Source: Alistipes sp.
GTDB taxonomy: Bacteria; Bacteroidota; Bacteroidia; Bacteroidales; Rikenellaceae
Assembly: GCA_017398045.1 (NCBI GenBank)
Contig: JAFQHI010000017.1
Coordinates: forward strand, 62,001-126,000
Direction of reading: 5' to 3'
Length of the DNA stretch: 64,000 nt
In this document: one piece after another, positions 10,646 to 53,567 of the stretch
Position numbering within the stretch: position 1 is the first letter of the stretch
Layout of the letters: the number at the start of each line of letters is the position of its first letter
Translations under genes and position numbers: made by a program
Notes under the pieces: model-generated
Told to the model about the DNA's origin: nothing
Databases searched by the model: none
Seen by the model: only the letters and a program-made list of their open reading frames with translations

Positions 10646-10691
10646 TAAATAAGAAATTCAAAATTACAAACCACATAAAAAATTTACAGCT

Positions 10692-11372: not shown

Positions 11373-11406
11373 AACGCCTATTACCATAAGCAGAGAAGCG
11401 TTTCAG

Positions 11407-11434
11407 GCTTGGGTAGGTTTGATCGCCTCCCAAG
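11407..11434 (+). other. hairpin between ATPase and permease 3 genes
   Basis: CTTGGGTAGG and CCTCCCAAG can pair across a short loop, giving an imperfect stem in the gap between the two genes. There is no U-tract, so it is more likely an mRNA-processing or stability element than a terminator. Confidence 0.3.
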
Positions 11435-11454
11435 TCACTAAGACAAAAAATAAA

Positions 11455-13800: not shown

Positions 13801-13813
13801 AAACTCAAACAAT

Positions 13814-16231: not shown

Positions 16232-16237
16232 AAGCCT

Positions 16238-37707: not shown

Positions 37708-38150
37708 GATACGGCAGGAACAAACGGATATTTAGCACATTCAGGGTCTGCAACGGATTCGTGGCTACGGCCCATATGGTCACGATAATCAAACACTTCC
37801 TCGCCTTGGTCGGGGAGATAGACAACAACGGTATCCCACTCTCGAAAAGGTCGGAAAAACGGTCGCAACATCCGCATCACCGGCGAAAACAAGCCGGGCA
37901 GTTTTCCTTCTATTTGCCTCGCGCCAATATACAATATTTAATATTATTACTGCAATTTATATTGCTTTAATATGCTATCTACTCAAATTTATTATTGCCA
38001 TCACAAAACGAGAAAAATCGGCATTACAAAACCTTCTTCGGCAACCACACCCGACCGAAGTCGCGCACCGCTGAATCCGTTCAGGCAATCAGCCGCGCCT
38101 TTCCAAAGGAAAGCGATTGAAAAAGAGGCTTGAAAAACAGACCGAAATGT
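37708..38150. other. intergenic region between hsdR and polysaccharide locus
   Basis: No certain gene. A minus-strand frame at 37704-37934 (76 codons) overlaps the hsdR stop; its C-terminal half (EVFDYRDHMGRSHESVADP) looks protein-like and could be the end of a truncated gene, but no family is recognised. The AT-rich part at 37925-37995 marks the border of the defence island. A short TTTCC/GGAAA palindrome lies at 38101-38113. Confidence 0.35.
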
Positions 38151-38180
38151 TTCAAAATTGGATATTTTTGCTTACATTTG
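38151..38180 (+). promoter_or_regulatory. promoter of polysaccharide locus A (TTTC-N18-TACATTTG)
   Basis: -7 box TACATTTG at 38173-38180 matches TAnnTTTG exactly, with TTTC at 38151-38154 as the -33 box. The start of transcription should be near 38187, giving a leader of about 190 nt before the first gene. The leader contains the conserved hairpin listed next. Confidence 0.65.
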
Positions 38181-38186
38181 CGATAC

Positions 38187-38380
38187 TTTTGAGAACCTCC
38201 ACGCGCATCGTTTTTCGTCGAAGCCACGCCCGCGGAGGCTAGAACTGATTGAGAATCAGCACATCCGCACATTCTCAAAGCCCTCGAGGTATGCCTATGA
38301 GTGAGCTGCGAGGGGCAAAACAAATCATTTTTTTGCTTTGCAAAACGCAAAGCGTCACATCCCAATGCACCAAAAACGAG
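38187..38380 (+). ncRNA. structured leader RNA A of the polysaccharide locus
   Basis: About 190-nt untranslated leader. It has an outer stem CCTCC/GGAGG (from 38198 to about 38238), then a stem TTGAGAAT (38249-38256) with ATTCTCAA (38271-38278), followed at once by AGCCCTCGAGGTATGC (38279-38294). A start-proximal hairpin GCTTTGC/GCAAAGC (38335-38353) follows a T7 run. The second stem, the sequence TGATTGAGAATCAGC and the 16-nt tail recur in leader B at 52297-52342 with a G-C to A-T covariation in the stem. It is likely a cis-acting antitermination or attenuation element; the protein partner is not in this window. Confidence 0.6.
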
Positions 38381-38815
38381 ATGACCATAGCAGTTGATTT
38401 CGACGGCACGATTGTCGAACACAAATACCCCTCGATCGGCAAGGAGATTCCCTTCGCCACCGCGACGCTAAAGATGCTCCAACGCGACGGACACCGCCTG
38501 ATTCTCTGGACGGTACGCGAGGGACATCTGCTCGATGAGGCGATTGAGTTTTGCCGCGAGCGGGGCGTGGAGTTTTTCTCCGTGAACAGCAACTACCCCG
38601 ACGAGGAGGTGGACCGCACGGCCATCCGCAGCCGCAAGCTCAAAGCGGACCTCTTCATCGACGATTGCCAGGTAGGCGGTCTTCCGGACTGGGGCGTGAT
38701 TTACGAGCTGATTTCGACGCGCACCAGTTACGCCGACTACCTCCGCCAATCGCTCCACCTCCCCGCCCCCAAACCCCAAAACCGCTCCCTCTGGAGCAAA
38801 CTTTTCGGCAAGTAA
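38381..38815 (+). CDS. small HAD-superfamily phosphatase
   Basis: 144 residues, one HAD domain with a very small cap. Motif I is DFDGTI (Asp8, Asp10 of MTIAVDFDGT minus numbering differences), motif II is LWTVRE, and the motif IV-like acidic pair is in DLFIDDCQ. Proteins like this open many Bacteroides polysaccharide loci and are thought to dephosphorylate a sugar or nucleotide intermediate. I start at the ATG at 38381; an in-frame extension to 38249 would run through the conserved leader hairpin and is not protein-like. Next gene follows after 17 nt. Confidence 0.8.
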   Translation: MTIAVDFDGTIVEHKYPSIGKEIPFATATLKMLQRDGHRLILWTVREGHLLDEAIEFCRERGVEFFSVNSNYPDEEVDRTAIRSRKLKADLFIDDCQVGGLPDWGVIYELISTRTSYADYLRQSLHLPAPKPQNRSLWSKLFGK

Positions 38816-38832
38816 GCTACGACCGACAATTC

Positions 38833-40392
38833 ATGAGCCAACAGCCGCAAATATCCCACGCAGAGGACAACAAGCGCATTGCCAAGAACACGCTGATGCT
38901 CTATGGGCGTATGCTCTTCAGCATGGCCGTATCGCTCTACACATCGCGCTTGGTACTCAACACGTTGGGAGTGGAAGATTACGGCATTCAGAATGTGGTG
39001 GGAGGTTTCGTAGCGATGTTTTCGCTGATTTCTGGCTCATTATCTGCTGCTGTAAGCCGATTCATCACCTTCGAATTGGGGCGAGGTGACACAACAAGGC
39101 TCAAACAGGTTTTTGCGACCTCGCTACTCATACACATCGCATTAGCGATTGCCGTACTGCTATTAAGTGAGACTATTGGCATTTGGTTCGTAAATCACAA
39201 AATGACTATTCCCGTTGAGCGTTTGACCGCAGCTAACTGGGTTTTCCAAAGCTCGATTTTATCGTTTATACTGGGTTTGTTGAGCATCCCATACAATGCC
39301 GTAATTGTCGCCCATGAACGCATGGGGGCATTTGCCTATATCGGCATTTTAGAAGTGATGTTACGTTTAGGAATCATCCTGTTCATCGCCTTTAGTCCGT
39401 GGAGGTTCGATCGGCTCATCGTATATTCGATCCTTTTAGCTGCCTTAAGCGCATTGATGCGCACCATCTACACCGTCTATTGCCGTCGCAACTTTCTGGA
39501 GTGCCGGACCGCTCTGCGCTTTGACAAAGCCTGCTGGAGAGAAATGAGCTCATTTGCGGGATGGAATTTTATCGGCAGTTCTTCGGCAGTGCTGAAAGAT
39601 CAGGGTGTTAATATCCTTATCAACCTTTTCTTCGGTCCGGTCTTAAATGCAGCTCGCGGAATTGCGACTACCGTAAATGGTGCTATCTGCGGATTTGTGA
39701 ACAACTTTATGGTTGCACTCAACCCACAAATCACAAAATCATACGCCTCGGGGGACTATCCGTTTCTCTTTTCGCTCATTGAACGCGGAGCGAGATTCTC
39801 ATTTTACATCATTTTATTTCTTGCGTTACCCATTCTCTTTGAGACCGATTTTGTATTAGCACTATGGCTCAAACAATATCCGGAGCACACGGTAAATTTT
39901 GTGAGGCTCATCATCTTGCTCTCCATGTGTGAGATGGTATCCAATCCGCTCGTCACACTTCAATTGGCAACCGGGAAAATCCGCAATTACCAAATAGCTG
40001 TCGGCGGGATGCAAATGATGAATTTTCCCCTATCGTATCTTTGCTTAGCCGCGGGGTTACCCGTCGAGTCAACGCTAATGGTCGCCATTGCCGTATCGCT
40101 CTGCTGCCTAATGTTGCGGCTGATATTTTTGCGAAAAATGGTTTCCGGATTCTCTGCTCGCAGATATATGCTACAAGTATGCACCAAAGTGCTCCTTGTC
40201 GCAATATGCGCCACACTCCTACCCTACCTTGTTCATCATCAATTAAATTACGGTTGGGGGCGACTGTTTGCCGTTGGTCTCACTTGTGTATTTAGCTGCA
40301 GTGTGGTTATTTACCACATCGGATGCACCGCAACGGAGCGGCACTACTTATTAGGCAAGCTCCAAGCACTCAAACAAAAGCTGGTTATATGA
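38833..40392 (+). CDS. polysaccharide repeat-unit flippase (Wzx/MATE-like)
   Basis: 519-residue integral membrane protein with about 12-14 hydrophobic segments, of the oligosaccharidyl-lipid flippase (MVF/polysaccharide biosynthesis) group. It should move undecaprenyl-linked repeat units across the inner membrane. The start region RIAKNTLMLYGRMLFSMAVSLYTSR is typical of Bacteroidota flippases. I use the ATG at 38833, because the upstream frame overlaps the HAD gene in another register. The stop overlaps the start of the next gene by 4 nt (ATGA). Confidence 0.88.
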   Translation: MSQQPQISHAEDNKRIAKNTLMLYGRMLFSMAVSLYTSRLVLNTLGVEDYGIQNVVGGFVAMFSLISGSLSAAVSRFITFELGRGDTTRLKQVFATSLLIHIALAIAVLLLSETIGIWFVNHKMTIPVERLTAANWVFQSSILSFILGLLSIPYNAVIVAHERMGAFAYIGILEVMLRLGIILFIAFSPWRFDRLIVYSILLAALSALMRTIYTVYCRRNFLECRTALRFDKACWREMSSFAGWNFIGSSSAVLKDQGVNILINLFFGPVLNAARGIATTVNGAICGFVNNFMVALNPQITKSYASGDYPFLFSLIERGARFSFYIILFLALPILFETDFVLALWLKQYPEHTVNFVRLIILLSMCEMVSNPLVTLQLATGKIRNYQIAVGGMQMMNFPLSYLCLAAGLPVESTLMVAIAVSLCCLMLRLIFLRKMVSGFSARRYMLQVCTKVLLVAICATLLPYLVHHQLNYGWGRLFAVGLTCVFSCSVVIYHIGCTATERHYLLGKLQALKQKLVI

Positions 40393-41564
40393 TTCAAATC
40401 ACGGATAAAAAAACATGTTGCGGATGCACAGCGTGTAAAGCCATATGCCCCACTCAAGCCATTGAGATGGTTCCGGACGCTTTGGGTTTTTTGTACCCGA
40501 AAGTTGATACCAACAAATGCATTGATTGCGGTTTGTGTGAAAAAGTTTGCTCATTCCATGCCGGATATGCAACAGCCGAGAACCTGCCAGAACCTCAAGT
40601 TTTTGCAGCGCGACACCGCTCCATGGAAGAAATTGCAAAAAGTCGTTCCGGAGCTGTGTTTGCCACACTTTCGGATTGGGTATTAAGGCAAGGCGGAGTC
40701 ATCTATGGGGCCGGCTACATCGATCACTTCCGAGTCGCGCATAAGCGGGCAACAACACCGGAAGAGAGGAATGAATTCCGTGGCAGCAAATATGTGCAAA
40801 GCGACTTAAACTCAACCTTTAAGCAAGTACAATCCGATTTAAAAAAAGGAAGCATGGTACTCTTTTCAGGCACCCCCTGCCAAACCTCGGGACTTAAATC
40901 GTTTTTAACTTGGACGAGAACAGACACAAGCAACCTATTTGTAGCAGACATAGTTTGCCATGGAGTACCGGCACCCCACATTTGGCGCGATTACCTCGCC
41001 TATATTGAAAAGCTAGAGGGACAAAAGGCTGTTGCCGTAGATTTTAGAGACAAAAGCCAATTGGGATGGGCTGCACATAAGGAATCTTTCACCTTTGCCG
41101 ATGGGCATAAACGAGTGGAGCAAACATATACATATACCTTTTATGAGCATATTATGTTTCGCCACTCCTGTAGCAATTGCCACTTTTGTAACTTCACACG
41201 CCCGTCAGATATCACCCTCGCCGATTTTTGGGGATGGCAGAAGGTGAATCCTCAACTAAATGCCGATGATAAGGGCATCTCATTGGTGTTAGTCAATACA
41301 GCAAAGGGGCAGGCGTGGTTTGACCACATTAAAGATGGCCTCACCTACATTCCCACCGACAAAGCGACCTGTTTACAACCTAATCTCAGCCGTCCAAGCG
41401 CGCAACATCCACTCAGAGAACAATTTGAAAAAGACTACATAAACAAAGGTTTTCAATATATTCTACGTCGCTATGCGGATAAAGGATGGCGATACAAGTT
41501 GCTACGTTTGAAACAAAAATCCAAAACAGCTATTCGTTTAGCTAAACGCATATTCATAAAATGA
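40389..41564 (+). CDS. ferredoxin-domain / F420-dehydrogenase beta-subunit-like protein
   Basis: 391 residues. Two 4Fe-4S clusters at the N-terminus (CCGCTACKAICP and CIDCGLCEKVC), then a FrhB-like domain with GTPCQTSGL and a second Cys group (SCSNCHFCNFTRPSD). Such proteins sit beside pyruvyl transferase genes in many capsule and O-antigen loci and are thought to reduce a flavin or act in sugar pyruvylation; their reaction is not established. Here the next gene is a polysaccharide pyruvyl transferase overlapping by 4 nt. Confidence 0.85.
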   Translation: MIQITDKKTCCGCTACKAICPTQAIEMVPDALGFLYPKVDTNKCIDCGLCEKVCSFHAGYATAENLPEPQVFAARHRSMEEIAKSRSGAVFATLSDWVLRQGGVIYGAGYIDHFRVAHKRATTPEERNEFRGSKYVQSDLNSTFKQVQSDLKKGSMVLFSGTPCQTSGLKSFLTWTRTDTSNLFVADIVCHGVPAPHIWRDYLAYIEKLEGQKAVAVDFRDKSQLGWAAHKESFTFADGHKRVEQTYTYTFYEHIMFRHSCSNCHFCNFTRPSDITLADFWGWQKVNPQLNADDKGISLVLVNTAKGQAWFDHIKDGLTYIPTDKATCLQPNLSRPSAQHPLREQFEKDYINKGFQYILRRYADKGWRYKLLRLKQKSKTAIRLAKRIFIK

Positions 41565-42640
41565 AGATTGGAATTCTGACATTTCATTGCGCCGCAAATT
41601 ACGGAGCCGTATTTCAAACTTACGGTTTGCAAGAAGCGTTGAAGGGGCTTGGTCACGAAGTGTTCATCGTGGATTATAGACCCGAATACCTACTGAAGCC
41701 TTACCGTCCTTTTAAGTTTAGCTATAAAACGAGTGATTCGGCAGTCACCAATCTCAAGCACTTTGTCCGTCGTTATCTGCTTGTCAATCCGACTCGGAGG
41801 AAACGCCTGAAACTCTTTGAGCAATTTGAGCAAAAGCAATTGCACATTTGTCCCATGACATCCATCCCAGAGCTAGATATTCTCGTTTTTGGCAGCGACC
41901 AGATATGGAATATCGGGATTACGGATGGGGATTTTGACGATATGTACCTTGGGGAAGGCCGAATCTTCAAAGGGAAAAAACTGGTAGCATACGCCGCCAG
42001 CGCCGGGCATGTAGATGTTCTAAAAAATGACCAAAAGCTCATTGATGCTCTTGGCGGTTTTGCGGCAGTAGCAGTACGCGAAAAATCATTATCGAGCCAT
42101 TTGGAACAGCGATTAAATAAATCAATTCCGGTCGTACTGGACCCCGTACTTCTTGCCGGGAAGGAGCATTTTTTACCATTGATTGGCACGAGGCCTAAAC
42201 GTGCGCCCTACTTACTCACCTTTCAATTAGGTGGAGATTTTCGCGTTTCCCAAATTGGCCGTCAAATGGCCAAAGAGAAAGGGCTGCAATATGTTGAGAT
42301 TCGCTCATCGGCAGAATCCCTAAACCGCGATATTCTTACCTCCCTATCACCTTCGGAAGTCTTAACCTATTTTAAGTACGCCGACTATATCGTCACCTCG
42401 TCCTTTCATGGGACAGCATTATCTATCCTCTTCGAAAAGTCGTTCAATGTAGTGTCTATTGATGTGCGCACCGATGAACGAGCCGATATGTTGTTAAAAG
42501 CCACCGGATTATTCTCTCGCAAAATAATCGGTGATGTAGCCGAAAAGTGTGACGACATTGATTATTCCGAAGTAAACCGGCTCCTCGCAGAAAAACAAGC
42601 ATCATCCAGAGACTACCTGATTAAAGCCCTGCAAGAATAG
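41561..42640 (+). CDS. polysaccharide pyruvyl transferase family protein
   Basis: 359 residues, WcaK/CsaB-like fold. N-terminal GILTFHCAANYGAVFQTYGL and the glycosyltransferase-B-like second half with VTSSFHGTALSILFEKSF are the family signatures. It should add pyruvate ketals from phosphoenolpyruvate to a sugar of the repeat unit. It overlaps the F420-dehydrogenase-like gene by 4 nt and is followed 1 nt later by a glycosyltransferase. Confidence 0.88.
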   Translation: MKIGILTFHCAANYGAVFQTYGLQEALKGLGHEVFIVDYRPEYLLKPYRPFKFSYKTSDSAVTNLKHFVRRYLLVNPTRRKRLKLFEQFEQKQLHICPMTSIPELDILVFGSDQIWNIGITDGDFDDMYLGEGRIFKGKKLVAYAASAGHVDVLKNDQKLIDALGGFAAVAVREKSLSSHLEQRLNKSIPVVLDPVLLAGKEHFLPLIGTRPKRAPYLLTFQLGGDFRVSQIGRQMAKEKGLQYVEIRSSAESLNRDILTSLSPSEVLTYFKYADYIVTSSFHGTALSILFEKSFNVVSIDVRTDERADMLLKATGLFSRKIIGDVAEKCDDIDYSEVNRLLAEKQASSRDYLIKALQE

Positions 42641-42641
42641 C

Positions 42642-43631
42642 ATGAATTCTCCGCTTATCTCCATCATCGTTCCGGTATATAACACCGAGAAATATCTCGA
42701 TCGGTGCATCCAAAGTGTATTGGCACAGACTTATACCAATTGGGAGCTACTGCTGATTGACGATGGTAGTACTGATTCTTCGGGGACCATATGCGACAAA
42801 TACGCGGCAGAGGATAAACGCATTCGAGTATTCCATAAAGAGAACGGAGGCGTTAGTTCAGCTCGCAACCTAGGCCTTGATAACGCAAAAGGAGAATGGA
42901 TTACGTTTGTAGATAGTGATGATTGGGTTAAACCATGCTGGCTCAGCAATTACGACATATGCAGCAACTTTTGCTATGATTTAATTTCACAAGGATTTGA
43001 AACAGATATACCTGTTTTTAACACACTCGAACCTCGCCAAAAGAGCTATACATACGCATTGGATAACGAAGGATCAATAGCCGAGGTTATGGAAGAAATC
43101 GAAAAGTCAAAGACTATCGGATTTCTATGGATTAAATTATTTAAAGCAAATTTAATTCGCGCTAGACACATAACATTTAATGAACAATTAGCACATGGGG
43201 AAGATTATATTTTCATCTACCACTATTTAAGCGAGGCTAAAACTATTAAAGCCGTTCGACAAATAGGATACCATTATAATGTCCCCCAATGGGCCAAAAA
43301 GTATACACAAGATTTTTCTTGGAATGTTCTGGTCAAAGAGGCTCTATACAAATATACATTAAGGATAATGACAAATTCGCCTCGTCATAATCTTGTGCGC
43401 CAGCGTCGAGAAGATTTAACCTCCATCTATATCGAAGAGTTTAGAGAGAATACTAATCATAGGTTTTTCTGTTTAAAACGACTACGAGCAATTTTACAAA
43501 AACAATTCATAGATTCTCAATTATTTTTTTTAACAAAACTTATTATTTTGATTGACCCTACATATTTTATATCTTCCTTAATTCTAAGATTACATATAAG
43601 CATAAAAAACAAAGCACAACAATGGATATAA
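42642..43631 (+). CDS. family 2 glycosyltransferase
   Basis: 329 residues. GT-A fold with SIIVPVYNTEKYLDRCIQS at the N-terminus, LLIDDGSTDSS, and the metal-binding DSDD in WITFVDSDDWV. It transfers a nucleotide-activated sugar to the growing repeat unit on the cytoplasmic face. The C-terminal third is Lys/Leu-rich and unlike standard family members. The gene turns AT-rich from about 43000, and its end overlaps the flavoprotein gene by 10 nt. Confidence 0.9.
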   Translation: MNSPLISIIVPVYNTEKYLDRCIQSVLAQTYTNWELLLIDDGSTDSSGTICDKYAAEDKRIRVFHKENGGVSSARNLGLDNAKGEWITFVDSDDWVKPCWLSNYDICSNFCYDLISQGFETDIPVFNTLEPRQKSYTYALDNEGSIAEVMEEIEKSKTIGFLWIKLFKANLIRARHITFNEQLAHGEDYIFIYHYLSEAKTIKAVRQIGYHYNVPQWAKKYTQDFSWNVLVKEALYKYTLRIMTNSPRHNLVRQRREDLTSIYIEEFRENTNHRFFCLKRLRAILQKQFIDSQLFFLTKLIILIDPTYFISSLILRLHISIKNKAQQWI

Positions 43632-44869
43632 TTATTGGTGGAGGCATTTCCGGTTTATCATATGCCCTTTTTAAGCATTCAGATGACTACTTGGTACTTG
43701 AGAAGGAGGCCGAGTTAGGAGGGTACTGCCGTACAACTAAACGAAATAACTTTGTATGGGACTACTCTGGTCATTTTTTTCATTTCCAAGATGCAGACAT
43801 TAAGCATTTAATAATGGAATCACTTTGTCGTCAAGGTGAAGTAGTTGATGTGCAAAAATGCACTAGTATCAAATACGGTGAACTTTTGGTCGATTTCCCA
43901 TTTCAAAAGAACATTCATCAATTGCCAAAAGATGAGTTTATCGATTGCTTAGTGGATTTATTCGCTGCAAAGCCAACGGATTACAACTCATTTAAAGAAA
44001 TGTTGTATTGTAAATTCGGCAAATCAATCGCAGAAAAGTTCTTAATTCCGTATAATGAAAAATTATACGCTTGCGATTTAAACAAATTGGATAAAGATGC
44101 AATGGGCCGATTTTTCCCGTATGCGGAAAAAGAGCAGATTGTTCTAAATTTTCGAGAAGCCGACAACACGTCTTACAACGGTTCTTTTTCTTATCCCAAA
44201 GGCGGTGCTATCCAATATGTAAATGAAATTGTCCATCAGTTAAAAGCCGGAAACATTCGAACGAACTGCCAAGTTGTCTCCATCAATTTAAAAGAGAAAC
44301 AGGTCGTTATGCAATCTGGAGAGGTATTGTCATATAACCATTTAATATCAACCATACCTTTTCCGCAGTTACTGAAAATGGCTGGAGTAGCATATGACGA
44401 GCAATGTTATAGTTGGAATCAAGTGCTTGTTTTTAATTTGGGTTTTGATAGACCTGGGCCTAACAACTCATCTCATTGGTTATATTTTCCCGACAAACAA
44501 TATAGTTTTTATAGAGTAGGATTCTACAATAATATTTTAGGAAATCGTAATAGCTCATTATATGTCGAACTAGGATTTAACAAGGATGCAGATATCAATC
44601 CAAGCGAATACCTCGGAACCGTTTTACACGATTTAGTTCGTTCCGGATGTATATCCTCCAGTCAAGTTCTACAAGATTATCAGGCAATTGTAATGAATCC
44701 TGCATATGTTCACATCACAGAAGATTCAATAAAGGATGTAGCCGATAAAAAGGCTATGCTAGAGCAATTTGGAGTCTATTCGATAGGTCGCTACGGAAGC
44801 TGGACATATTGCTCAATAGAAGACAATGTAAAAGAAGCTAGAGCGTTAGCTCAACAATTAAATAAATAG
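43622..44869 (+). CDS. FAD-dependent oxidoreductase, UDP-galactopyranose-mutase-like
   Basis: 415 residues. Rossmann dinucleotide-binding motif IIIGGGISGLSYAL at the N-terminus and the FAD-binding ELGGYCRT follow the protoporphyrinogen-oxidase/UDP-galactopyranose-mutase pattern. A DYSGHFFHF segment is typical of mutase-like proteins in polysaccharide loci. Either it makes a furanose nucleotide sugar or it oxidises a sugar nucleotide. It overlaps the upstream glycosyltransferase gene by 10 nt and leaves 3 nt before the next one. Confidence 0.82.
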   Translation: MDIIIGGGISGLSYALFKHSDDYLVLEKEAELGGYCRTTKRNNFVWDYSGHFFHFQDADIKHLIMESLCRQGEVVDVQKCTSIKYGELLVDFPFQKNIHQLPKDEFIDCLVDLFAAKPTDYNSFKEMLYCKFGKSIAEKFLIPYNEKLYACDLNKLDKDAMGRFFPYAEKEQIVLNFREADNTSYNGSFSYPKGGAIQYVNEIVHQLKAGNIRTNCQVVSINLKEKQVVMQSGEVLSYNHLISTIPFPQLLKMAGVAYDEQCYSWNQVLVFNLGFDRPGPNNSSHWLYFPDKQYSFYRVGFYNNILGNRNSSLYVELGFNKDADINPSEYLGTVLHDLVRSGCISSSQVLQDYQAIVMNPAYVHITEDSIKDVADKKAMLEQFGVYSIGRYGSWTYCSIEDNVKEARALAQQLNK

Positions 44870-44872
44870 AAA

Positions 44873-45931
44873 ATGGCGAAGGTTTTAAGTATCGTCGTTC
44901 CGACATACAACATGGAGAAATATCTCCAACATGGATTAGATTCATTGTTAATATCTCAAGGGATTGAGCGGATTGAAGTACTTGTCATTAACGATGGTAG
45001 TACAGATCAGTCATCCACAATCGCCCATTCGTATGCTCAAAAGTATCCTGGCGTATTTATTGTTGTTGATAAGCCTAATGGCAACTATGGCTCATGTATT
45101 AACGCCGCGATTAAAATCGCTAAAGGTAAATACATCAAGATCATGGATGCTGACGATAGTTTTATAACCGATGGATTTGAAAAGTTAGTAGATACTCTTT
45201 CAAAGATTGACGCGGATTTGGTTTATTCCGATTATGTTAAAACATATTCTTCGGGAAAAATCATTGAATATAAATTTGACCTACCTGCAAACCAGTCTCT
45301 TTCCTTTAATGATATAGCCACGACAAAGGCAATATATGATATATTATTACCTGCTATCACATATCGCACAGATATTTTACGAAAAATCGGCTATAAACAA
45401 ACAGAAGGAATTTCTTATACAGATGTAGAATGGTGCTTTTCGCCCGTCACACGGGTACAGACCGTATACTATTTAGACGAAATAGTATATAAATATTTAA
45501 TGGGAAGAGAAGGGCAAACTATGGACCCTAAAGTATACGCGCGATCAATCCCTCAACGAATACAGTGCTTTTCCGCCCTCCTTCATAGCATTAAAGGTCT
45601 TACACTTTCTGAAAGCATGAGCTACTTCACGACGAGTCAACTTGTCAAGCATGCATACTATATTTACCGATACTACTTGATTGACAACCCTAAAGAGGAT
45701 CGCAGATTACTCATAGCTTTCGACGAGGAGCTTAAAGCACTTAATCCACTCACATACAATCAATGCGGTGATTTTCAATATCGTCTCCACATACCATATC
45801 GCTACGTTACTAAATGGAGAGAATGTAAGACTGAAATTCCATTAATCATAAAATTATATGGATACTTCTTGGATATTTGCGGAAAGATTCATATCCAGTT
45901 TATGCGACATAATCCCAATGCAGAGCGATAG
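44873..45931 (+). CDS. family 2 glycosyltransferase
   Basis: 352 residues. LSIVVPTYNMEKYLQHGLDS at the start, VINDGSTDQS, and DADD in YIKIMDADDSF are GT2 signatures. The C-terminal half carries a long helical region (about 200-350) unlike the neighbour at 42642. It is AT-rich like its neighbours. The end is followed by a 270-nt gap, the longest in this locus. Confidence 0.9.
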   Translation: MAKVLSIVVPTYNMEKYLQHGLDSLLISQGIERIEVLVINDGSTDQSSTIAHSYAQKYPGVFIVVDKPNGNYGSCINAAIKIAKGKYIKIMDADDSFITDGFEKLVDTLSKIDADLVYSDYVKTYSSGKIIEYKFDLPANQSLSFNDIATTKAIYDILLPAITYRTDILRKIGYKQTEGISYTDVEWCFSPVTRVQTVYYLDEIVYKYLMGREGQTMDPKVYARSIPQRIQCFSALLHSIKGLTLSESMSYFTTSQLVKHAYYIYRYYLIDNPKEDRRLLIAFDEELKALNPLTYNQCGDFQYRLHIPYRYVTKWRECKTEIPLIIKLYGYFLDICGKIHIQFMRHNPNAER

Positions 45932-46071
45932 AAGATTTTCAAGTTATACTCTCCTTCCCAGCTATTGCACACCTGCTACGATATATAAATTAAGATTATA
46001 CACTCTCCGATTCTAGCTACTATCGTAACTCTACTCATACGCACGCTACGTAAATTTTCGACAATATCGAG
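45932..46071. other. gap within polysaccharide locus
   Basis: AT-rich, no gene recognised. Together with the frame at 46072 it probably marks where genes were lost or swapped. Confidence 0.35.
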
Positions 46072-46212
46072 ATGGGAGGCGTCTGGTTGAAAAGTATTCC
46101 AAACCCTCTCCAAAAACAACACACTTTGATGGAATTCTACGCTGATGTATGTGTCCCAACATCTAGCGATAGAGTTCTTGAATTTCCAATTTCACATTCA
46201 TATGAAAATTAG
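46072..46212 (+). pseudogene. possible 3' remnant of a polysaccharide gene
   Basis: A 46-codon frame (MGGVWLKSIPNPL to ISHSYEN) that overlaps the start of the next glycosyltransferase in another frame. It has protein-like composition but no recognised family. It may be the tail of a deleted gene; chance is also possible. Confidence 0.3.
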
Positions 46213-47179
46213 TGTCATCATCCCCATCTACGGAGTAGAGCACTTTATTGAGAGATGTGCGAGGTCGCTCATGGAGCAGACGCTTGGCGAGGTGGAGTTT
46301 ATCTTCGTCGATGATGCTTCTCCTGACCGAAGCATCGAGATTTTGCGTCGCACACTCACCGACTACCCTAATCGCCAACAGCAGGTGCGCATCCTGACGC
46401 ACGAGGTCAACAAAGGACTGCCGGCAGCTCGCAACACAGGATTGGCCGTAGCCACAGGCGAATATATTTTCCACTGCGACAGCGACGACTATGTGGAGCG
46501 CGAGATGTTGGCAGAGATGTACGAGGCGGCCAAGAAGGCCGATGCAGATATTGTTTGGAGCGACTATTATGATTCATACGAACATAATGAGCGTTACTTA
46601 AAACAACCCGTATATCACACAGCACATGATGCATTATGTGGCATGTTATGCGGACGAATGAAATACAATGTTTGGAATAAATTAGTCCGTAAATCGCTCT
46701 ATCACGACTACCACATCACGTATCCCGCAGGACATAGTATGGGAGAAGATATGACGATGATTAAATTGTTTAGTCGCGCTTCAAAAGTACTATACCATCC
46801 TCATGCATATTACCACTATGTTAAATGGAATGTTGGTTCCATGACAGCCAAATATACGCAAAAGCACCTGGACGCCTTGGAATACAACGTACGTGATATA
46901 ATCTTTTATTTAAAGAATAACTATCAACATCCTATTGATATTGAGTTAGCTTGTTTTCAGCTCGAAGCAAAATGGGTGTTCCTCATAAGTAACCAGTGGG
47001 AAGATTATAGACGATGGTCTGCCTGGTTTCCGGAGAGCCACCCATTTATATGGAAAAACAAGTACGTTTCCTTCCGAGTTCGGCTGATAGAGTGGCTTGC
47101 ATACCGCAAACAATATTGGCTCGTTTGGGTTCATTATCATATTGTTATTAAATTTTTATATAGTATTATCTATAAATAA
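46202..47179 (+). CDS. family 2 glycosyltransferase
   Basis: 325 residues. KISVIIPIYGVEHFIERCARS, FIFVDDASPDRS and DSDD in YIFHCDSDDYV are GT2 signatures. I start at the ATG at 46202, because the upstream extension to 46145 adds a segment with no family pattern and a GT2 fold begins at MKISVI. The first 360 nt are more GC-rich than the rest, which suggests a recombinant gene. The polymerase gene follows after 5 nt. Confidence 0.9.
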   Translation: MKISVIIPIYGVEHFIERCARSLMEQTLGEVEFIFVDDASPDRSIEILRRTLTDYPNRQQQVRILTHEVNKGLPAARNTGLAVATGEYIFHCDSDDYVEREMLAEMYEAAKKADADIVWSDYYDSYEHNERYLKQPVYHTAHDALCGMLCGRMKYNVWNKLVRKSLYHDYHITYPAGHSMGEDMTMIKLFSRASKVLYHPHAYYHYVKWNVGSMTAKYTQKHLDALEYNVRDIIFYLKNNYQHPIDIELACFQLEAKWVFLISNQWEDYRRWSAWFPESHPFIWKNKYVSFRVRLIEWLAYRKQYWLVWVHYHIVIKFLYSIIYK

Positions 47180-47184
47180 TACAG

Positions 47185-48486
47185 ATGAAAAAAACATTGC
47201 CAATCTTAGGGGGAATAATTATAACTAGTTTCTATTTTTTCCCCTTTGAATTTTCTTTTTTACCGGGCATCAATACCAAGATGGCACTAGCCGGTATTGG
47301 ACTGGTATTACTTGGGCTAAATCTAGGACGTTCTCGAGAATCGTTATTTCGAAAAGATATCACAATAGCTTCGCTTCTAGCTGGTGCGGTGTCACTCATT
47401 GGATTTATAGCAACTATATACAACAACACAACCGACTATAGTTACGCTAGCTATCTAATATCCATGTGGGTTTGGCTAAGTGGGGCATATGTTGTTATTC
47501 TATTCTTAAAATGGATTCATGGTTGTATAACTCCTCAATTAGTCTGCAATTATTTGATTGCTGTCTGCACAATACAATGTATTATTGCCATTTCCATGGA
47601 ATTCAACGACTCTTTAAAATTTTTCGTTGACGGATTTCTTGGCGGAGAAGGATTCATGGGAAAAAATGAGGGTCGTCTTTACGGTATTGGTGCAGCCTTG
47701 GATGTAGCCGGCTCCCGTTTTGCGACTATGCTCATTGCGATTGCATTTTTTTGTTCTCGCCCCGATTTATACATACAATCAAATAGACAAATCTTATTAT
47801 ATCTTATTGCCTTTTTCATTATACTCTTAATCGGGAATATGATGGCTCGCACGACCATTATTGGCGGTGTTATTGCGATTGCATACTATATATGTAATGC
47901 GATATTTAGACGAAAGCGGGGCTTGCACAATTATAAAATCGGATGGTGGTTAATCGGATGCTCCTTTCTCACTATCATAGTAGTTAGTTATTTATACCTA
48001 ACAAATCCGGTGATTGAAAAACACGTAAGATTTGCGTTTGAGGGTTTCTTCTCATTAGCCGAAACTGGTCAATGGGAAGTCCAATCAAACAACCAACTCT
48101 TACACCATTGGGACGCCATTCCTCAAGAGTTTCGCACATGGATGATTGGCGATGGCTATTTTCAGGCTCATAAAACTGATCCCTATTATCTTGGCCCAGT
48201 GTGGGGCGATTTCTACCATTCTACAGATGTTGGCTATTGGCGTTTTATTTACTACTTTGGCTTAATAGGTCTTTTAGCCTTTTCCGCTTTTTTATGTTAT
48301 GTCACCTATGCTTGTAGCAAAAATCATCCAACATTCAAACTTCTATGCTGGCTTATTTTAATAACTAATTTCATTATTTGGGCAAAAGTATCGACAGATC
48401 TTTTCTTAGTATTCGCTTTACTTTTAGTAATCCCAAAAGAGCCAAACGACACCATTGTTCCTCAACAAATACCTGTCTCCGATTAA
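47185..48486 (+). CDS. Wzy-like polysaccharide polymerase, O-antigen ligase family
   Basis: 433-residue integral membrane protein with about 11-12 hydrophobic segments and one larger periplasmic loop (about residues 280-360), the layout of Wzy polymerases. It should join flipped repeat units at the periplasmic face. Sequence identity in this family is low, so the call rests on topology and position between glycosyltransferases, flippase and acyltransferase. Confidence 0.75.
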   Translation: MKKTLPILGGIIITSFYFFPFEFSFLPGINTKMALAGIGLVLLGLNLGRSRESLFRKDITIASLLAGAVSLIGFIATIYNNTTDYSYASYLISMWVWLSGAYVVILFLKWIHGCITPQLVCNYLIAVCTIQCIIAISMEFNDSLKFFVDGFLGGEGFMGKNEGRLYGIGAALDVAGSRFATMLIAIAFFCSRPDLYIQSNRQILLYLIAFFIILLIGNMMARTTIIGGVIAIAYYICNAIFRRKRGLHNYKIGWWLIGCSFLTIIVVSYLYLTNPVIEKHVRFAFEGFFSLAETGQWEVQSNNQLLHHWDAIPQEFRTWMIGDGYFQAHKTDPYYLGPVWGDFYHSTDVGYWRFIYYFGLIGLLAFSAFLCYVTYACSKNHPTFKLLCWLILITNFIIWAKVSTDLFLVFALLLVIPKEPNDTIVPQQIPVSD

Positions 48487-48503
48487 TATACGACTATACA
48501 AGC

Positions 48504-49619
48504 ATGAAACAAAGAATAGAATACATAGATGCGCTTCGAGGTTTTACGATGATATTGGTAGTGTTTGCTCACCTTGAAGGTTTCTGCTTATTAAAAGAAG
48601 GTTTTGGCTCACTCACGCCTCTCAATTCCCTCTTTCAATCTTTCAGGATGCCTCTATTCTTTTTCGTCAGCGGATTCATTGCATTTAAAACAACATCACA
48701 CGGTAGGGGGGGGGAACGATTTTTTCGAGCGAGTATAAAAAAAGCTAAAGTTATTATTCCGACCTTATTTTTCGGATTAATATACACCTACTTATATATA
48801 GACAAAGACTTAATTTTTTTTATCACTGATGCAGCCAAAGGAGGTTATTGGTTTACTCTTGTCTTGCTAGAAATCTTTATAATTTATTACATCGTTAACC
48901 TATTATTACCACTCCAGGGGAATGTAGAAAAATCGCGACTTGTTGACAAATGGACTATTGCACTAATATGCCTTAGTATATTTTTATACTTAATTAAATT
49001 ACCCCTAAAGCTAAATCCAACTCTTCAATTATTCGGAGATATAACAAGTTTACACTATACATGTGAGTATTTTCAATTCTTTTCATTTGGTTTATTATCT
49101 GCAAGATACAGCAAATTCACCACAAACATACTAGGCAATTCCAAATTGTGTGCAATAACCATTATATCATTCTTCACCCTTTGGTATATCAAGACTTATT
49201 ACATAGTTCCTCATGAAACATTTAGCATAGATTATTGGAAAATTACAGCAACCGTCTTTGATTCTCTGACTGGTTATTTAGGAATACTCACAATATTTGG
49301 CTGTTTTAGAAAGTATCAAAATTACTTGTCTACAGCAACAAAAGTAGGACGGTTGTTATCATTTATTGGCCGCAGAACACTTGATATATATCTATTACAT
49401 TACTTCTTTTTATCGCCCATGCCAAGCATTGGTGCATGGTTGGAAAAGAATCCCAACATAGTTGTCGAGCTATCAACAGGTTTAATATTATCTTTACTCA
49501 TTATTGGCTGTTGCCTCCTTATCAGTCAATTATTAAGGACAAGCAATTTCTTGGCGCAATGGTTGTTTGGCGCAAAAAAGACAATCGTGCCTGATACCCA
49601 TAAACATATCACTACGTGA
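48504..49619 (+). CDS. acyltransferase family 3 membrane protein with G9 tract
   Basis: 371 residues, about ten TM segments. RIEYIDALRGFTMILVVFAHLEG is the classical N-terminal motif of OafA/NodX-type O-acyltransferases. It acetylates or otherwise acylates a sugar of the polysaccharide. The start at 48504 fits the motif; the longer frame back to 48378 overlaps the polymerase gene. Codons near residue 70 contain nine consecutive G (48706-48714); loss or gain of one G would put the gene out of frame, so it may be phase-variable. The stop overlaps the next gene by 4 nt. Confidence 0.9.
   Translation: MKQRIEYIDALRGFTMILVVFAHLEGFCLLKEGFGSLTPLNSLFQSFRMPLFFFVSGFIAFKTTSHGRGGERFFRASIKKAKVIIPTLFFGLIYTYLYIDKDLIFFITDAAKGGYWFTLVLLEIFIIYYIVNLLLPLQGNVEKSRLVDKWTIALICLSIFLYLIKLPLKLNPTLQLFGDITSLHYTCEYFQFFSFGLLSARYSKFTTNILGNSKLCAITIISFFTLWYIKTYYIVPHETFSIDYWKITATVFDSLTGYLGILTIFGCFRKYQNYLSTATKVGRLLSFIGRRTLDIYLLHYFFLSPMPSIGAWLEKNPNIVVELSTGLILSLLIIGCCLLISQLLRTSNFLAQWLFGAKKTIVPDTHKHITT
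48706..48714 (+). repeat. homopolymeric G9 tract inside acyltransferase gene
   Basis: Nine G in a row, in frame within an otherwise AT-rich gene. Such tracts mutate often by slippage. It is the longest homopolymeric G run seen in the window. Confidence 0.85.
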
Positions 49620-50755
49620 AACTCATCTACTGCATACACTCGGTTTATAATCCGGGGGGGATGGAGCGGGTACTCCTGAACAAGGTCTCCTTTTTGGTGG
49701 AGAAGTTAGGATGGGAGATTCTGATTGTCACCACCGACCAGCACAATCGGCCACCCTTCTACCCCTTCCCGAGTCAGGTTCGGATGGTCGATTTAGGAAT
49801 CAACTACTCCGAGGATAACAAGTTGGGTACCATAGCCAAAGTGCGAGGCTACTTGCGTCGGCGCAAGATGCACAAAAAGGCTCTCACCGAACTCCTAATG
49901 CGCGAAAAGGCCGACATCGTCATTTCGCTCTACCCGTCGGAATCCTCCTTTCTCTGCGATATCCGCGATGGCAGCAAGAAGGTATTGGAGTTGCATTTCT
50001 GCAAATTCTTCCGTCTGCAATATGGGCGTAAGGGGTTGATGGGACTCATTGACCGCTATCGCACCTGGCTCGACGAGCGCATTGTACGCCGCTTCGACCG
50101 TTTTGTCGTACTCACCGAGGAGGACAAAGGCTACTGGGGAAATCTGCCCAATTTGGAGGTTATTCCCAATGCTGCCCTCTTCATTGCACCTCGTCTCTCC
50201 ACCCAAACCGAAAAGCGGGTTATTGCCGTCGGACGACTCGATTACCAGAAAGGGTTTGACCGCCTGATTCAAGCGTGGAGACTCGTACAACAAAATCCGG
50301 GATGCCAAGATTGGCGATTGGACATTTTCGGTCAAGGCGAGTGGCAAGAGATGCTCGAAGCGATGATTCATGAATATGGATTGACACACTCGGCTCACAT
50401 CAATACCCCCTCCAAGCGGATTGGTGAAGAGTACGCCGCCAGCTCGTTACTGGTTATGAGTTCTCACTATGAAGGGTTCCCGATGGTGATGATAGAAGCG
50501 ATGGCGTGCGGCCTTCCGGTCGTCGCTTTTGATTTCAAATGCGGGCCGAAGGATATCATTCTGGAGGGGCAAAACGGAATCATTGTACCCGAAGGCGATA
50601 TTCCACAATTAGCCCAGGCCATCACACAGCTTATTGAGCAAGAATCCCTGCGCAAAGCCATGTCTAAAGAGGCTCGGGAAGTCACCAATCGTTACTCCGA
50701 GGAGCGCATCATGCAACAATGGATTGACCTCTTCACTTCGCTTGTTTCTCGATGA
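49616..50755 (+). CDS. family 4 glycosyltransferase
   Basis: 379 residues, GT-B fold. The N-terminal domain starts MKLIYCIHSVYNPGGMERVL; the C-terminal domain has AVGRLDYQKGFDRLI and the EGFPMVMIEAMACGLPVV block with the catalytic E. The GTG start overlaps the acyltransferase stop (GTGA). A G7 run (49654-49660) encodes the PGGM motif. From here on the sequence is GC-rich again. The next gene overlaps by 4 nt. Confidence 0.9.
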   Translation: MKLIYCIHSVYNPGGMERVLLNKVSFLVEKLGWEILIVTTDQHNRPPFYPFPSQVRMVDLGINYSEDNKLGTIAKVRGYLRRRKMHKKALTELLMREKADIVISLYPSESSFLCDIRDGSKKVLELHFCKFFRLQYGRKGLMGLIDRYRTWLDERIVRRFDRFVVLTEEDKGYWGNLPNLEVIPNAALFIAPRLSTQTEKRVIAVGRLDYQKGFDRLIQAWRLVQQNPGCQDWRLDIFGQGEWQEMLEAMIHEYGLTHSAHINTPSKRIGEEYAASSLLVMSSHYEGFPMVMIEAMACGLPVVAFDFKCGPKDIILEGQNGIIVPEGDIPQLAQAITQLIEQESLRKAMSKEAREVTNRYSEERIMQQWIDLFTSLVSR

Positions 50756-51987
50756 AAAAGTTATTACAAATCAATCCGGTCGTCCGCATTTCCACCTCTA
50801 CGGGACGCATCATGCAGGAGATTGGCGAACTTGCCATCGAACGCGGCTGGGAGAGTTATATTGCCTACAGCAAAGGGCGAGACGGCATCAAACCCTGCAA
50901 ATCAAAGCTCGTCCCCGTAGGCAATAAATGGAGTGTGCGTTGGCACGGCATCATGACACGCCTTTTCGATCGTCACGGGTTGGCCTCGACGCGTGCCACG
51001 AAGGCTTTTATCCGACAAATCGAGCGGATTCAACCCGACATCATCCACATCCACAACATCCACGGCTACTTCCTGAACTACAAGGTATTATTCGATTTTT
51101 TAGCTCGATACGGGAAACCTGTTATTTGGACCGTACATGATTGCTGGCTCTATACAGGACATTGCTATTATTATAGTTATCAAAGATGCTCGAAGTGGGA
51201 GCAACATTGCCAGCAATGCCCTCAAAAACGTAAATTCCCGAGTAGCTACTTATTCGACCGTTCCTCTCGAAATTTCGATGATAAACGTCTCGCTTTTAAT
51301 GCCTTGCTACCGAACGGTATGCATATCGTTCCCGTCTCCGACTGGATGCGGGGAGAGATGAGTCGTTCTTTCCTCAAAGATTACCCCTATCAGGTCATCC
51401 ACAACGGCATCGACACCGCACTCTTCGCACCATGTGATCCCGTGGAGATTCGAACCCGATACCACATCCCTGCCGACAAAAAAATCTATCTGGGCGTCGC
51501 CAGCATCTGGAGTGACGAAAAGGGCTTGGCTGAATTCAAGCGCATGGCTACACAACTCTCAGAGGATGAAGTAATCGTCATGGTCGGTGTAAGTGAGGTC
51601 ATCAAAAAGCAGTTGCCCGACAACATCATCTCTATCGCTCGCACCGAGAATATCAAGCAATTGGCAGCACTCTACTCGGCAGCTACCGCCTTTATCAACC
51701 CCACATGGCAGGATAACTACCCGACCGTGAATCTGGAGGCTATCTCTTGTGGAACGCCTGTCGTGACCTATCGTACCGGTGGCAGCATCGAGTCCATCAC
51801 CCCCGACACGGGAAGCATTGTCGAACAAGGAGACGTAGAGGGGCTATTACGCGCAGCACGCGACATCAAACAACGAGGGAAGAGCTATTTCACGGAGCGT
51901 TGTCGCGACTATGCCTTGGCCTATTTCAAAAAAGAAGACCGCTACCAAGAATACCTCGAACTCTACGAAAAGCTGCTCAACGAATAG
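50752..51987 (+). CDS. family 4 glycosyltransferase
   Basis: 411 residues, GT-B fold. It begins MKKLLQINPVVRISTSTGRI; the acceptor domain has IIHIHNIHGYFLNYK and WTVHDCWLYTGHCYYY, a pattern of WcaC/fucosyl- or colanic-type transferases. The donor domain has LGVASIWSDEKGL, then NPTWQDNYPTVNLEAISCGTPVV. Last gene of locus A; a strong terminator follows. Confidence 0.9.
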   Translation: MKKLLQINPVVRISTSTGRIMQEIGELAIERGWESYIAYSKGRDGIKPCKSKLVPVGNKWSVRWHGIMTRLFDRHGLASTRATKAFIRQIERIQPDIIHIHNIHGYFLNYKVLFDFLARYGKPVIWTVHDCWLYTGHCYYYSYQRCSKWEQHCQQCPQKRKFPSSYLFDRSSRNFDDKRLAFNALLPNGMHIVPVSDWMRGEMSRSFLKDYPYQVIHNGIDTALFAPCDPVEIRTRYHIPADKKIYLGVASIWSDEKGLAEFKRMATQLSEDEVIVMVGVSEVIKKQLPDNIISIARTENIKQLAALYSAATAFINPTWQDNYPTVNLEAISCGTPVVTYRTGGSIESITPDTGSIVEQGDVEGLLRAARDIKQRGKSYFTERCRDYALAYFKKEDRYQEYLELYEKLLNE

Positions 51988-52010
51988 CCGAATTTACAAC
52001 TCGATGAAAG

Positions 52011-52034
52011 CCGACCTCAAAGGTCGGTTTTTTT
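52011..52034 (+). terminator. intrinsic terminator of polysaccharide locus A
   Basis: CCGACCT, loop CAA, AGGTCGG, then seven T, 24 nt past the stop of the last glycosyltransferase gene. Confidence 0.9.
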
Positions 52035-52194
52035 GTTCTCACTTTTCAGGTTGTTTCGATAGAAAGGTTGTCTAAAGGGATGGAGAGCGGGGAGGGTGGG
52101 AGGAGCGGGAAGAGAGGCGGGCAAAAAATTGGGTGTAAGGGGTTGAGAGAGATGTCGTAAAAACGAAAAAAAGTTGTAAAAAAAGCCTTGAAAA

Positions 52195-52226
52195 TTTCAT
52201 TATTAGCATAGAGATATGTATATTTG
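52195..52226 (+). promoter_or_regulatory. promoter of polysaccharide locus B (TTTC-N20-TATATTTG)
   Basis: -7 box TATATTTG (52219-52226) is an exact TAnnTTTG match, with TTTC at 52195-52198 as -33 box. The layout is the same as at 38151-38180. Start of transcription near 52233. Between the terminator and this promoter (52035-52194) nothing else is recognised. Confidence 0.65.
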
Positions 52227-52232
52227 CACGGA

Positions 52233-52436
52233 ATATCCACTCCTCTCTGCGCCGGTTTTCCGGACGGTGATGGAGCGAAATACAAGGCTTAAGTGATTAA
52301 GAATCAGCGTATTTTATGATTCTTAAAGCCCTCGAGGTATGCTCAAACGGCAACAAAACAACTTATAACAAGTTCCCAAAAGAGCCAAATTTGAGTTTTT
52401 TAGCAGCTCAAAATTCACAAAAAAAACGGGTAAAAG
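52233..52436 (+). ncRNA. structured leader RNA B of the polysaccharide locus
   Basis: About 200-nt leader. A first hairpin is centred on CCGGTTTTCCGG (52252-52263), enclosed by CTCC/GGAG. A second stem TTAAGAATCA (52297-52306) pairs with TGATTCTTAA (52317-52326), followed directly by AGCCCTCGAGGTATGC (52327-52342), identical to leader A. A third hairpin TTTGAG/CTCAAA (52390-52412) precedes the ATG. Relative to leader A the second stem shows a compensatory G-C to A-T change, which supports a selected RNA structure. Confidence 0.6.
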
Positions 52437-53567
52437 ATGACATCACTCAAGGTATTGCAACTTGGAAAATTCTATCCCATCCGCGGTGGGGTGGAGAAGG
52501 TGATGTACGACCTGATGACAGGCTTGTCGGAGCAGGGCGTTCGGTGCGATATGCTTTGTGCCGTAGAGGGTAAAAGCGAGACGATTCGTCTGAACGACCA
52601 CGCCAACCTGATTTGCTGTCATGCCGTGAAGAAGGTGGCCGCGACGATGATTTCGCCCTCGATGGTGTGGACCTTGCGCAAGATTTGCCGCGAGTACGAC
52701 ATCATCCACATCCACCATCCCGACCCGATGGCCTGCCTCGCGCTCTTCCTTTCGGGCTACAAGGGGCGTGTCATCTTGCATTGGCACAGCGACATTCTCA
52801 AGCAGAAGAACCTGCTGAAGCTCTACCGACCGTTGCAGCGTTGGCTCATCAACCGTGCCGAGCGCATTGTCGGCACCACACCGCTCTACCTGCAGGAGTC
52901 GCCCTTTTTGACCGATGTGCAGGAGAAGACCGTCTGTGTCCCCATCGGCATCGTACCTCCTGCGGATGATAGTGGCAACACGGCCGGGGAGGAGATTCGT
53001 CAGCAGTTCCCCGACAAGACAATCATCTTCTCGTTGGGACGTCTGGTCGAGTACAAGGGGTTCGAACACCTGATTGAGGCGGCCCGCTACCTCAACGACC
53101 GATTTGTCATCCTCATTGGTGGCAGCGGCCCTCTGAAAGAGCAGCTGCAGGCTAAAATCGACCATTTTGGTCTTGGCGAAAAGGTGAAATTGTTAGGTTT
53201 TTTGAGCGAGAAGGAGCTGCCGGCCTACTACAAGGCTTGCGACCTCTTCTGCCTTTCGTCGGTGTACAAGACCGAGGCTTTCGGCATCGTGCAGATTGAG
53301 GCCATGAGCTACGCAAAACCCGTTGTCGCCACCACCATCGAGGGTTCCGGCGTCCATTGGGTCAATGCCGAAGGTGAGTCGGGTCTCAATGCCAAGAAGG
53401 GCGATGCCCGCGCTTTGGCCAAGGCGATGCGTGCCATCACCTCCCATCCGATGATTTATGCCCGCTATTCGGAGGGTGCAAAGCAACGCTTCAAGGCCAT
53501 GTTTACCCTCGAAAAGATGGTCAATAATATGCTGGCCGTCTACACCAAAAAAGAAGAAACACGTTAA
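52437..53567 (+). CDS. family 4 glycosyltransferase
   Basis: 376 residues, GT-B fold. It starts MTSLKVLQLGKFYPIRGGVEK. Donor-domain motifs are FSLGRLVEYKGFEHLIEA and SVYKTEAFGIVQIEAMSYAKPVV. First gene of locus B, directly after the structured leader. The sugar transferase gene follows after 24 nt. DNA here is GC-rich like the core genome, unlike locus A. Confidence 0.92.
   Translation: MTSLKVLQLGKFYPIRGGVEKVMYDLMTGLSEQGVRCDMLCAVEGKSETIRLNDHANLICCHAVKKVAATMISPSMVWTLRKICREYDIIHIHHPDPMACLALFLSGYKGRVILHWHSDILKQKNLLKLYRPLQRWLINRAERIVGTTPLYLQESPFLTDVQEKTVCVPIGIVPPADDSGNTAGEEIRQQFPDKTIIFSLGRLVEYKGFEHLIEAARYLNDRFVILIGGSGPLKEQLQAKIDHFGLGEKVKLLGFLSEKELPAYYKACDLFCLSSVYKTEAFGIVQIEAMSYAKPVVATTIEGSGVHWVNAEGESGLNAKKGDARALAKAMRAITSHPMIYARYSEGAKQRFKAMFTLEKMVNNMLAVYTKKEETR

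Follow-up and report, generated by a model that had tools for sequence, protein, structure and literature searches.

What do two polysaccharide operons of an Alistipes genome share ahead of their first genes, and which factor might read it? The window analyzed here, a stretch of 64,000 nucleotides (nt) of Alistipes sp. (assembly GCA_017398045.1, contig JAFQHI010000017.1, positions 62,001 to 126,000), holds two such operons, each preceded by a leader. An earlier note had proposed that these leaders form a common structured RNA and belong to a regulatory system with a NusG paralog of the UpxY type. We show that both leaders contain a covarying hairpin directly followed by a conserved unpaired tail, and that this element recurs in relatives in front of polysaccharide genes and of upxY itself. 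Since a covarying hairpin and a conserved unpaired tail are the parts that loading of UpxY onto a paused RNA polymerase would need, the comparison of sequences suggests that the element is very probably a loading site for a UpxY-family NusG paralog.

A shared element in two leaders

The two leaders have in common a 52-nt repeat, 79% identical between 38243-38294 and 52291-52342, which ends in the 16-mer AGCCCTCGAGGTATGC. The earlier note had described this tail as identical in both leaders, and had placed a promoter pair of TTTC and TAnnTTTG ahead of each; both descriptions proved accurate. The leader features are as follows.

38150-38153 and 38173-38180, plus strand: promoter-like pair of leader 1, TTTC and TACATTTG, 19-nt spacer (read from sequence)
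52195-52198 and 52219-52226, plus strand: promoter-like pair of leader 2, TTTC and TATATTTG, 20-nt spacer (read from sequence)
38196-38238, plus strand: structured 5' segment of leader 1, a GC-rich imperfect stem of unconserved sequence (fold)
52238-52277, plus strand: structured 5' segment of leader 2 (fold)
38237-38305, plus strand: element copy 1 (covariance model R2, 57.9 bits; copy in the R2 training set)
52285-52353, plus strand: element copy 2 (covariance model R2, 70.8 bits; copy in the R2 training set)
38249-38256 pairing with 38271-38278, plus strand: hairpin of copy 1 (fold; covariation over relatives)
52297-52306 pairing with 52317-52326, plus strand: hairpin of copy 2, 10 bp (fold; covariation)
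38279-38294, plus strand: conserved tail AGCCCTCGAGGTATGC of copy 1, directly after the hairpin, proposed ops-like tag and pause
52327-52342, plus strand: conserved tail AGCCCTCGAGGTATGC of copy 2, directly after the hairpin

With up to two mismatches, the 16-mer occurs at exactly 2 sites in the 2.36-Mb draft assembly (56 contigs, 91.5% complete), as does its reversed control pattern; the 18-mer comprising the tail and the two preceding A's matches exactly at both leaders, and its reversed control has 0 matches in this genome. Matches to the bare tail across the order were rejected as candidates: 8 of 10 lay outside the window's own genome and, by eye, were without such a hairpin, most of them being coding-like. 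Among the bare-tail matches in relatives and the family, those inspected gave 11 real elements, and the others were mostly coding.

From the tail to the start codon there are 86 nt in leader 1 and 94 nt in leader 2. Scanned for terminators on the coding strand, the stretch between element and gene gave no hit in leader 1 or in leader 2. A conserved start-proximal hairpin, part of the order proposed earlier, was not found in the leaders, no search aimed at one having been made. Invertible promoters with flanking inverted repeats are frequent, not universal, in UpxY leader systems; promoter inverted repeats of at least 12 nt, sought inside 37950-38250 and 52030-52290, were found in neither stretch. 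Rfam covariance models gave 0 matches up to E 1 in the window and in nine related loci. The suggestion of a new RNA class holds only as far as this absence from Rfam goes.

Covariation supports one hairpin

Which stem do the leaders form? The TGATT/AATCA stem favored in the earlier note found no support, as 66.9% of its cells are paired over 58 aligned rows and the shuffled mean is 66.6%. The supported hairpin is formed by TTGAGAAT and ATTCTCAA within 38249-38278 of leader 1 and by TTAAGAATCA and TGATTCTTAA within 52297-52326 of leader 2, with loops of 14 and 10 nt, respectively. The A-U to G-C change between the window copies, which had been taken as a covarying pair of the TGATT stem, is real but falls in this other hairpin.

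When 56 elements are aligned, standard pairs fill 97.1% of the cells in the eight-pair stem, compared with 78.8% in shuffles, and double-sided changes occur in six of the eight pairs (77 cells). Control stems slid by 1 to 3 columns in the same 56 rows drop to 31 to 56% pairing. This alignment was fitted to a model containing seven of the eight stem pairs; in a MAFFT alignment of 58 rows that was not fitted to structure, 92.2% of the cells are paired and 68 show double changes; most of the lost pairing is at the final two pairs, in a set of near-copies whose gap is shifted. Because the rows are related, these covariation counts are not to be read as probabilities. The 56 rows omit nine elements with a different 5' strand and two with insertions or deletions, and the 58 rows keep the latter two. 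In the nine elements, the 5' strand lies further upstream and an inner hairpin is inserted; counted in six of them, pairing amounts to 97.6% in the outer and 87.0% in the inner stem. The first 11 elements collected comprise five of one form and six with the alternative one; in all of them the distance from the AATCA-like motif to the tail is 21 nt, and the element is therefore anchored at its 3' side.

Sequence conservation resides mostly outside the paired strands, namely in the tail, which is unpaired, and in the motif TAAnT(G/A)A that precedes the stem. The consensus of the tail in the 56 rows is (T/A)G(T/C)CCCC(G/A)(A/G)GNTAT(G/A)(C/T)NC, the G at position 2 being invariant. The foot of the stem is nearly fixed (U-A, U-A or U-G, G-C) and its middle varies. 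A TAnnTTTG box is present 30 to 110 nt upstream of 64 of 67 elements, many of which are close relatives, compared with 4.4 expected from shuffles, and mostly lies 53 to 80 nt from the element start. The outer GC stem that had been proposed is a fold of the 5' segment between promoter and element. Taken together, these segments are more stably folded than their shuffled versions (mean z -1.43, 30 below -1, in 45 of the 67 leaders, near-copies and some others being omitted); they have no common sequence, and the window's own values are z -0.28 for leader 1 and -1.50 for leader 2.

The element precedes upxY genes in relatives

Is the element connected with UpxY, as had been expected for these leaders? 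Our first model, R1, was based on sequence only. Across the 268 genomes of the family, a limit of E <= 1e-5 gave 32 copies, spread over 30 genomes, and a limit of E <= 0.01 gave matches in 61 genomes; mostly the copies at E <= 1e-5 and a few of the weaker ones (E 1e-5 to 0.01) were followed up. In 14 of 34 loci with listed downstream genes, two of the 14 from another family, the element stands directly before a NusG paralog. By NCBIfam these proteins are UpxY: the five tested reached 128 to 161 bits on the model NF033644 (cut-off 100).

The link also appears from the side of the gene. When 65 loci were fetched by a UpxY profile alone and then searched with R2, 47 contained the element, always on the coding strand and 28 to 254 nt before the first aligned UpxY residue. 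The weakest of these matches has an E-value of 0.03, and no other match up to E 1 occurred in the 510 kb searched; E-values from these models are only approximate. The training set of R2 had 32 rows, with one used twice; 12 rows recur among the 47 matches, and the other 35 matches were not in that set. Among the 47 are two loci from Muribaculaceae, one, weak, from Parabacteroides, and a ruminant-gut group. This outcome bears out the assignment of the leaders to a system with a UpxY-like NusG paralog.

The 30 top-scoring upxY loci of the family include 24 with the element immediately upstream, the weakest match having E 0.006. The other six, which include the upxY of the window's genome, show no match and lie close behind a transglycosylase gene, a call based on Pfam SLT for this genome's copy and on likeness of the flanking DNA for the other five. 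Element and gene co-occur as well. Each of the 30 genomes in which R1 detects a clear element (E <= 1e-5) also has a UpxY at E <= 1e-40, compared with 64 of the full set of 268; when the 13 seed genomes of the UpxY profile are set aside, the counts are 17 of 17 and 51 of 255. The corresponding Fisher values, 3e-22 for all genomes and 1e-13 without the seeds, overstate the association because the genomes are related.

A separate UpxY gene in the window's genome

Which UpxY could serve the window's leaders? As the earlier note had stated, the window itself has no UpxY-like gene. The only one found in its genome lies on another contig (G000:C43:7876-8376, minus strand; NCBIfam NF033644 antiterm_UpxY, 161.3 bits, cut-off 100). 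It sits 17 nt behind a lytic transglycosylase gene (Pfam SLT) and is not the first gene behind a leader. The other NusG copy (C16) is the core NusG, with 176.6 bits on TIGR00922 and 51.7 bits on the UpxY model. The element is present three times in this genome, always on contig 4: before a BT0820-type phosphatase gene, before a family-4 glycosyltransferase (GT4) gene and, outside the window (G000:C4:25397-25465, minus strand), before a gene for a polysaccharide-biosynthesis epimerase.

We searched 21 genomes with such a separate UpxY, 18 chosen for having the element and three for having such a UpxY without it. Each of the 18 genomes has between one and three elements, 22 in total, and every one of these leads a polysaccharide gene or operon. 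In 18 of 18, elements and UpxY are on different contigs; these are drafts, so this is no measure of distance. The first gene itself is of a polysaccharide kind behind 18 of the 22 elements (WecA-like, sugar transferase, GT4, RmlA, epimerase). At the other four, in the window and in genomes G008, G027, and G502, a phosphatase gene comes first and is followed by glycosyltransferases, a flippase or a pyruvyl transferase. Nine of the first genes were named by comparison with family models, several of them below the model cut-off, and 13 by N-terminal likeness to those. G008 and G027 keep both positions seen in the window, that is, element and phosphatase and, 10 to 14 kb on, element and GT4; in both genomes, a gene closely similar to the glycosyltransferase that opens operon 2 of the window comes first behind an element.

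A second group of separate UpxY genes lies mostly behind a sodium/hydrogen-exchanger-like gene (Pfam for one of them). We also observed that separate UpxY genes (loci L216-L230 and L232) have two recurring neighborhoods, transglycosylase or sodium/hydrogen-exchanger-like, some with an rmlA-like gene next to them. The UpxY of G466, which belongs to the genus of the window's genome, is identical to that of the Alistipes sp. record L151. UpxZ (PF06603) was matched in 0 of 30 genomes, and no control genome matched either. In viral contigs, no UpxY was confirmed.

The two arrangements differ in one letter of the tail. Position 1 is A in 20 of 20 aligned elements of separate-UpxY genomes and T or C in the 47 upxY-adjacent ones; a weak upxY-adjacent element outside the alignment (L234, 26.0 bits) has G. 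Because the two UpxY groups are mostly separate clades, this difference may reflect descent and not a recognition letter.

Proposed recruitment of UpxY

How might the element work? RNA polymerase would leave the promoter and, about 70 nt past the TAnnTTTG box, start to transcribe the 8- to 10-bp hairpin. With the hairpin formed, the polymerase would stand over the tail, G(C/T)CCCN..GGTATGYNC, exposed as non-template DNA, and hairpin and tail would jointly hold it there. UpxY, supplied by a gene elsewhere in the genome, might then recognize the paused complex and ride with the polymerase through the long polysaccharide operon, preventing early termination. Bacteroides UpxY is reported by Saba et al. 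(2024) to read the paused polymerase via the non-template strand and the upstream duplex, with nascent RNA hairpins as an aid. We also considered the G-10 Y-1 G+1 rule for pause sites; the tail does not fit it exactly, and we claim no pause position.

A more far-reaching reading, somewhat more likely than not, is that the UpxY of Alistipes-like Rikenellaceae left its operon and now acts in trans, in the manner of RfaH, on one to three polysaccharide operons dispersed over the genome, a covarying hairpin and an ops-like tail marking each of them. Tail position 1 would then separate the two life styles, A with a separate and T or C with an adjacent upxY. The signal is shared with Muribaculaceae and ruminant-gut Bacteroidales, so hairpin and tail would be an ancient code by which some of the Bacteroidales recruit UpxY.

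Several results weigh against the proposed loading site and show that the element is not a general UpxY feature. None of the 29 UpxY loci that ranked first by the NCBIfam model in 149 genomes of the order, the locus of the window's genome included, matched the element (0/29), nor did 18 of the 65 loci named above. In the order as a whole, matches to R2 were confined to 3 of 295 genomes, the window's own among them. The three genomes chosen for a separate UpxY of the same groups without the element belong here as well. As regards action in trans, the evidence is the position of the genes in draft assemblies, from which a trans-acting UpxY may be suspected.

UpxYs close to the profile are rare in the order (10 of 198 genomes at E <= 1e-30), and the loci compared are from bacteria other than B. 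fragilis and B. thetaiotaomicron. By eye, we recognized possible divergent forms upstream of upxY in L145 (another family; about 1399-1458), L167, L168, L169, L171, and L195, in which a hairpin of quite different sequence precedes a tail such as TGTCCCCGAGGAATGTTC or GGTGTCCC. By the same inspection, several of the 18 unmatched loci show a differing hairpin before a similar tail, and the model may miss such divergent forms.

As a separate observation, the sequence-only model gave weak matches in L188, L193, L194, L199, L201, and L203 (about 2080-2280) to a conserved stretch resembling AACTGGTTGGGAATCAGTG, which lies about 1.8 kb before upxY, is without the tail, and may be coding.

Alternative explanations

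Might UpxY instead bind the RNA hairpin itself, as LoaP does, the tail being only a spacer or pause and RNA being read in place of non-template DNA? The strong covariation of the hairpin and the nearly fixed foot of its stem would agree with this, and so would the NusG paralog LoaP, which needs and binds a leader RNA hairpin according to an excerpt of PMC12691694. In contrast, conservation lies mostly in the unpaired tail and TAAnT(G/A)A, outside a stem whose middle varies. Saba et al., moreover, are said to assign recognition by Bacteroides UpxY to DNA. Finally, the LoaP hairpin is of the UNCG type in the same excerpt (PMC12691694), unlike the 14- and 10-nt loops of the window. We therefore regard direct recognition of the RNA by UpxY as unlikely.

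A still less probable explanation is an attenuator or riboswitch, in which the leader would toggle between the TGATT/AATCA stem and the longer hairpin upon binding a metabolite or an RNA or upon action of a ribosome. In the window copies the two pairings overlap and are mutually exclusive; however, TGATT/AATCA pairs no better than shuffles over the 58 rows, neither leader has a detectable terminator between element and gene, Rfam gives no match, and the linkage is to a NusG paralog and not to one pathway. These findings make such a switch very improbable.

That the element is a repeat or the remnant of a mobile element, duplicated to a second site, as two copies 14 kb apart and 79% identical over 52 nt might suggest, can practically be dismissed: more than one family shows compensatory changes and a steady distance to the promoter box, G008 and G027 have elements at the same two positions, the loci examined are throughout leaders of polysaccharide or upxY genes, the tail being found with the element before polysaccharide loci other than those of the window, and there is no sign of a mobile element or coding remnant.

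Operons and neighboring genes

The operons of the window are long and, taken together, hold by Pfam glycosyltransferases, a pyruvyl transferase, a sugar transferase, and export genes. The features that delimit them are given below.

38381-38815, plus strand: first gene of operon 1, BT0820-family HAD-type phosphatase (NF046079, 203.6 bits, cut-off 165)
52437-53567, plus strand: first gene of operon 2, family-4 glycosyltransferase (Pfam PF00534)
starting at 53592: sugar transferase, next gene of operon 2 (Pfam PF02397)
52006-52032, plus strand: intrinsic-terminator-like site between both polysaccharide operons (scan: 1 found, 0.6 expected from shuffles)

Given the terminator-like site between the operons, transcription most likely starts anew at the second leader.

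Outside the operons, a gene for the R subunit of a type I restriction enzyme (Pfam; 35092-37707) ends shortly before leader 1, and the open reading frames upstream of it, from about 26.7 kb, may hold the remaining restriction system. A series of long paralogous genes occupies 5825-18691; both genes tested are MacB/FtsX-like permeases, and repeats between the copies are 65 to 92% identical.

Comparison with known systems

UpxY control of Bacteroides capsule leaders has been published, and the instance in the window is a variant of it. New here, as far as titles and opening abstracts in the literature tell, are the signal of covarying hairpin plus tail in Rikenellaceae and the putative use of this signal by a UpxY encoded elsewhere in the genome; by title or opening abstract, no description of the element was found, and Saba et al. 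2024 may contain one. Hairpin and tail provide a searchable signal that would predict UpxY-controlled polysaccharide operons even far from upxY. In an excerpt of Wang et al. 2020 (PMC7593976), it is suggested that two B. fragilis UpxYs without UpxZ may act like RfaH, and the present genomes give this suggestion a concrete set of targets. Together, the cis and trans pairs form a natural series for working out the recognition code of UpxY.

LoaP, too, is a NusG paralog that works with an RNA hairpin in the leader, in the excerpted account of PMC12691694. The protein of the window's genome differs from it, scoring 21.7 bits on NF033641 (cut-off 125), and so does the RNA: the hairpin is of the UNCG type in that account, whereas here loops have 10 to 14 nt and conservation lies mainly outside the stem.

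Closest are the capsule leaders of Bacteroides (Chatzidaki-Livanis 2009; Saba et al. 2024), with a NusG paralog of the same UpxY family and long polysaccharide operons. Excerpts of two articles state that B. fragilis UpxY prevents premature termination in the 5' leader (PMC7315117, PMC7819879), and an excerpt of PMC12691694, citing Saba et al. 2024, that UpxY contacts the upstream DNA duplex. Common to both systems is a leader between promoter and first gene, and in relatives of the window's genome the element stands directly before upxY. The covarying hairpin before the tail fits the role that nascent hairpins reportedly have in Bacteroides, and it may act on the polymerase. The comparison concerns these systems and not the leader sequences themselves; a difference is that the window's upxY lies outside its target operons.

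This last trait is what the window's system would share with RfaH and ops, namely, as proposed here, a stand-alone NusG paralog that would serve a small number of dispersed surface-polysaccharide operons in trans, by way of a short tag in their leaders. The tail AGCCCTCGAGGTATGC differs from the ops sequence. In terms of the protein, the window's genome encodes a UpxY, which reaches 32 bits on the RfaH model TIGR01955 (cut-off 144.5), and its tag, unlike ops, follows a covarying RNA hairpin.

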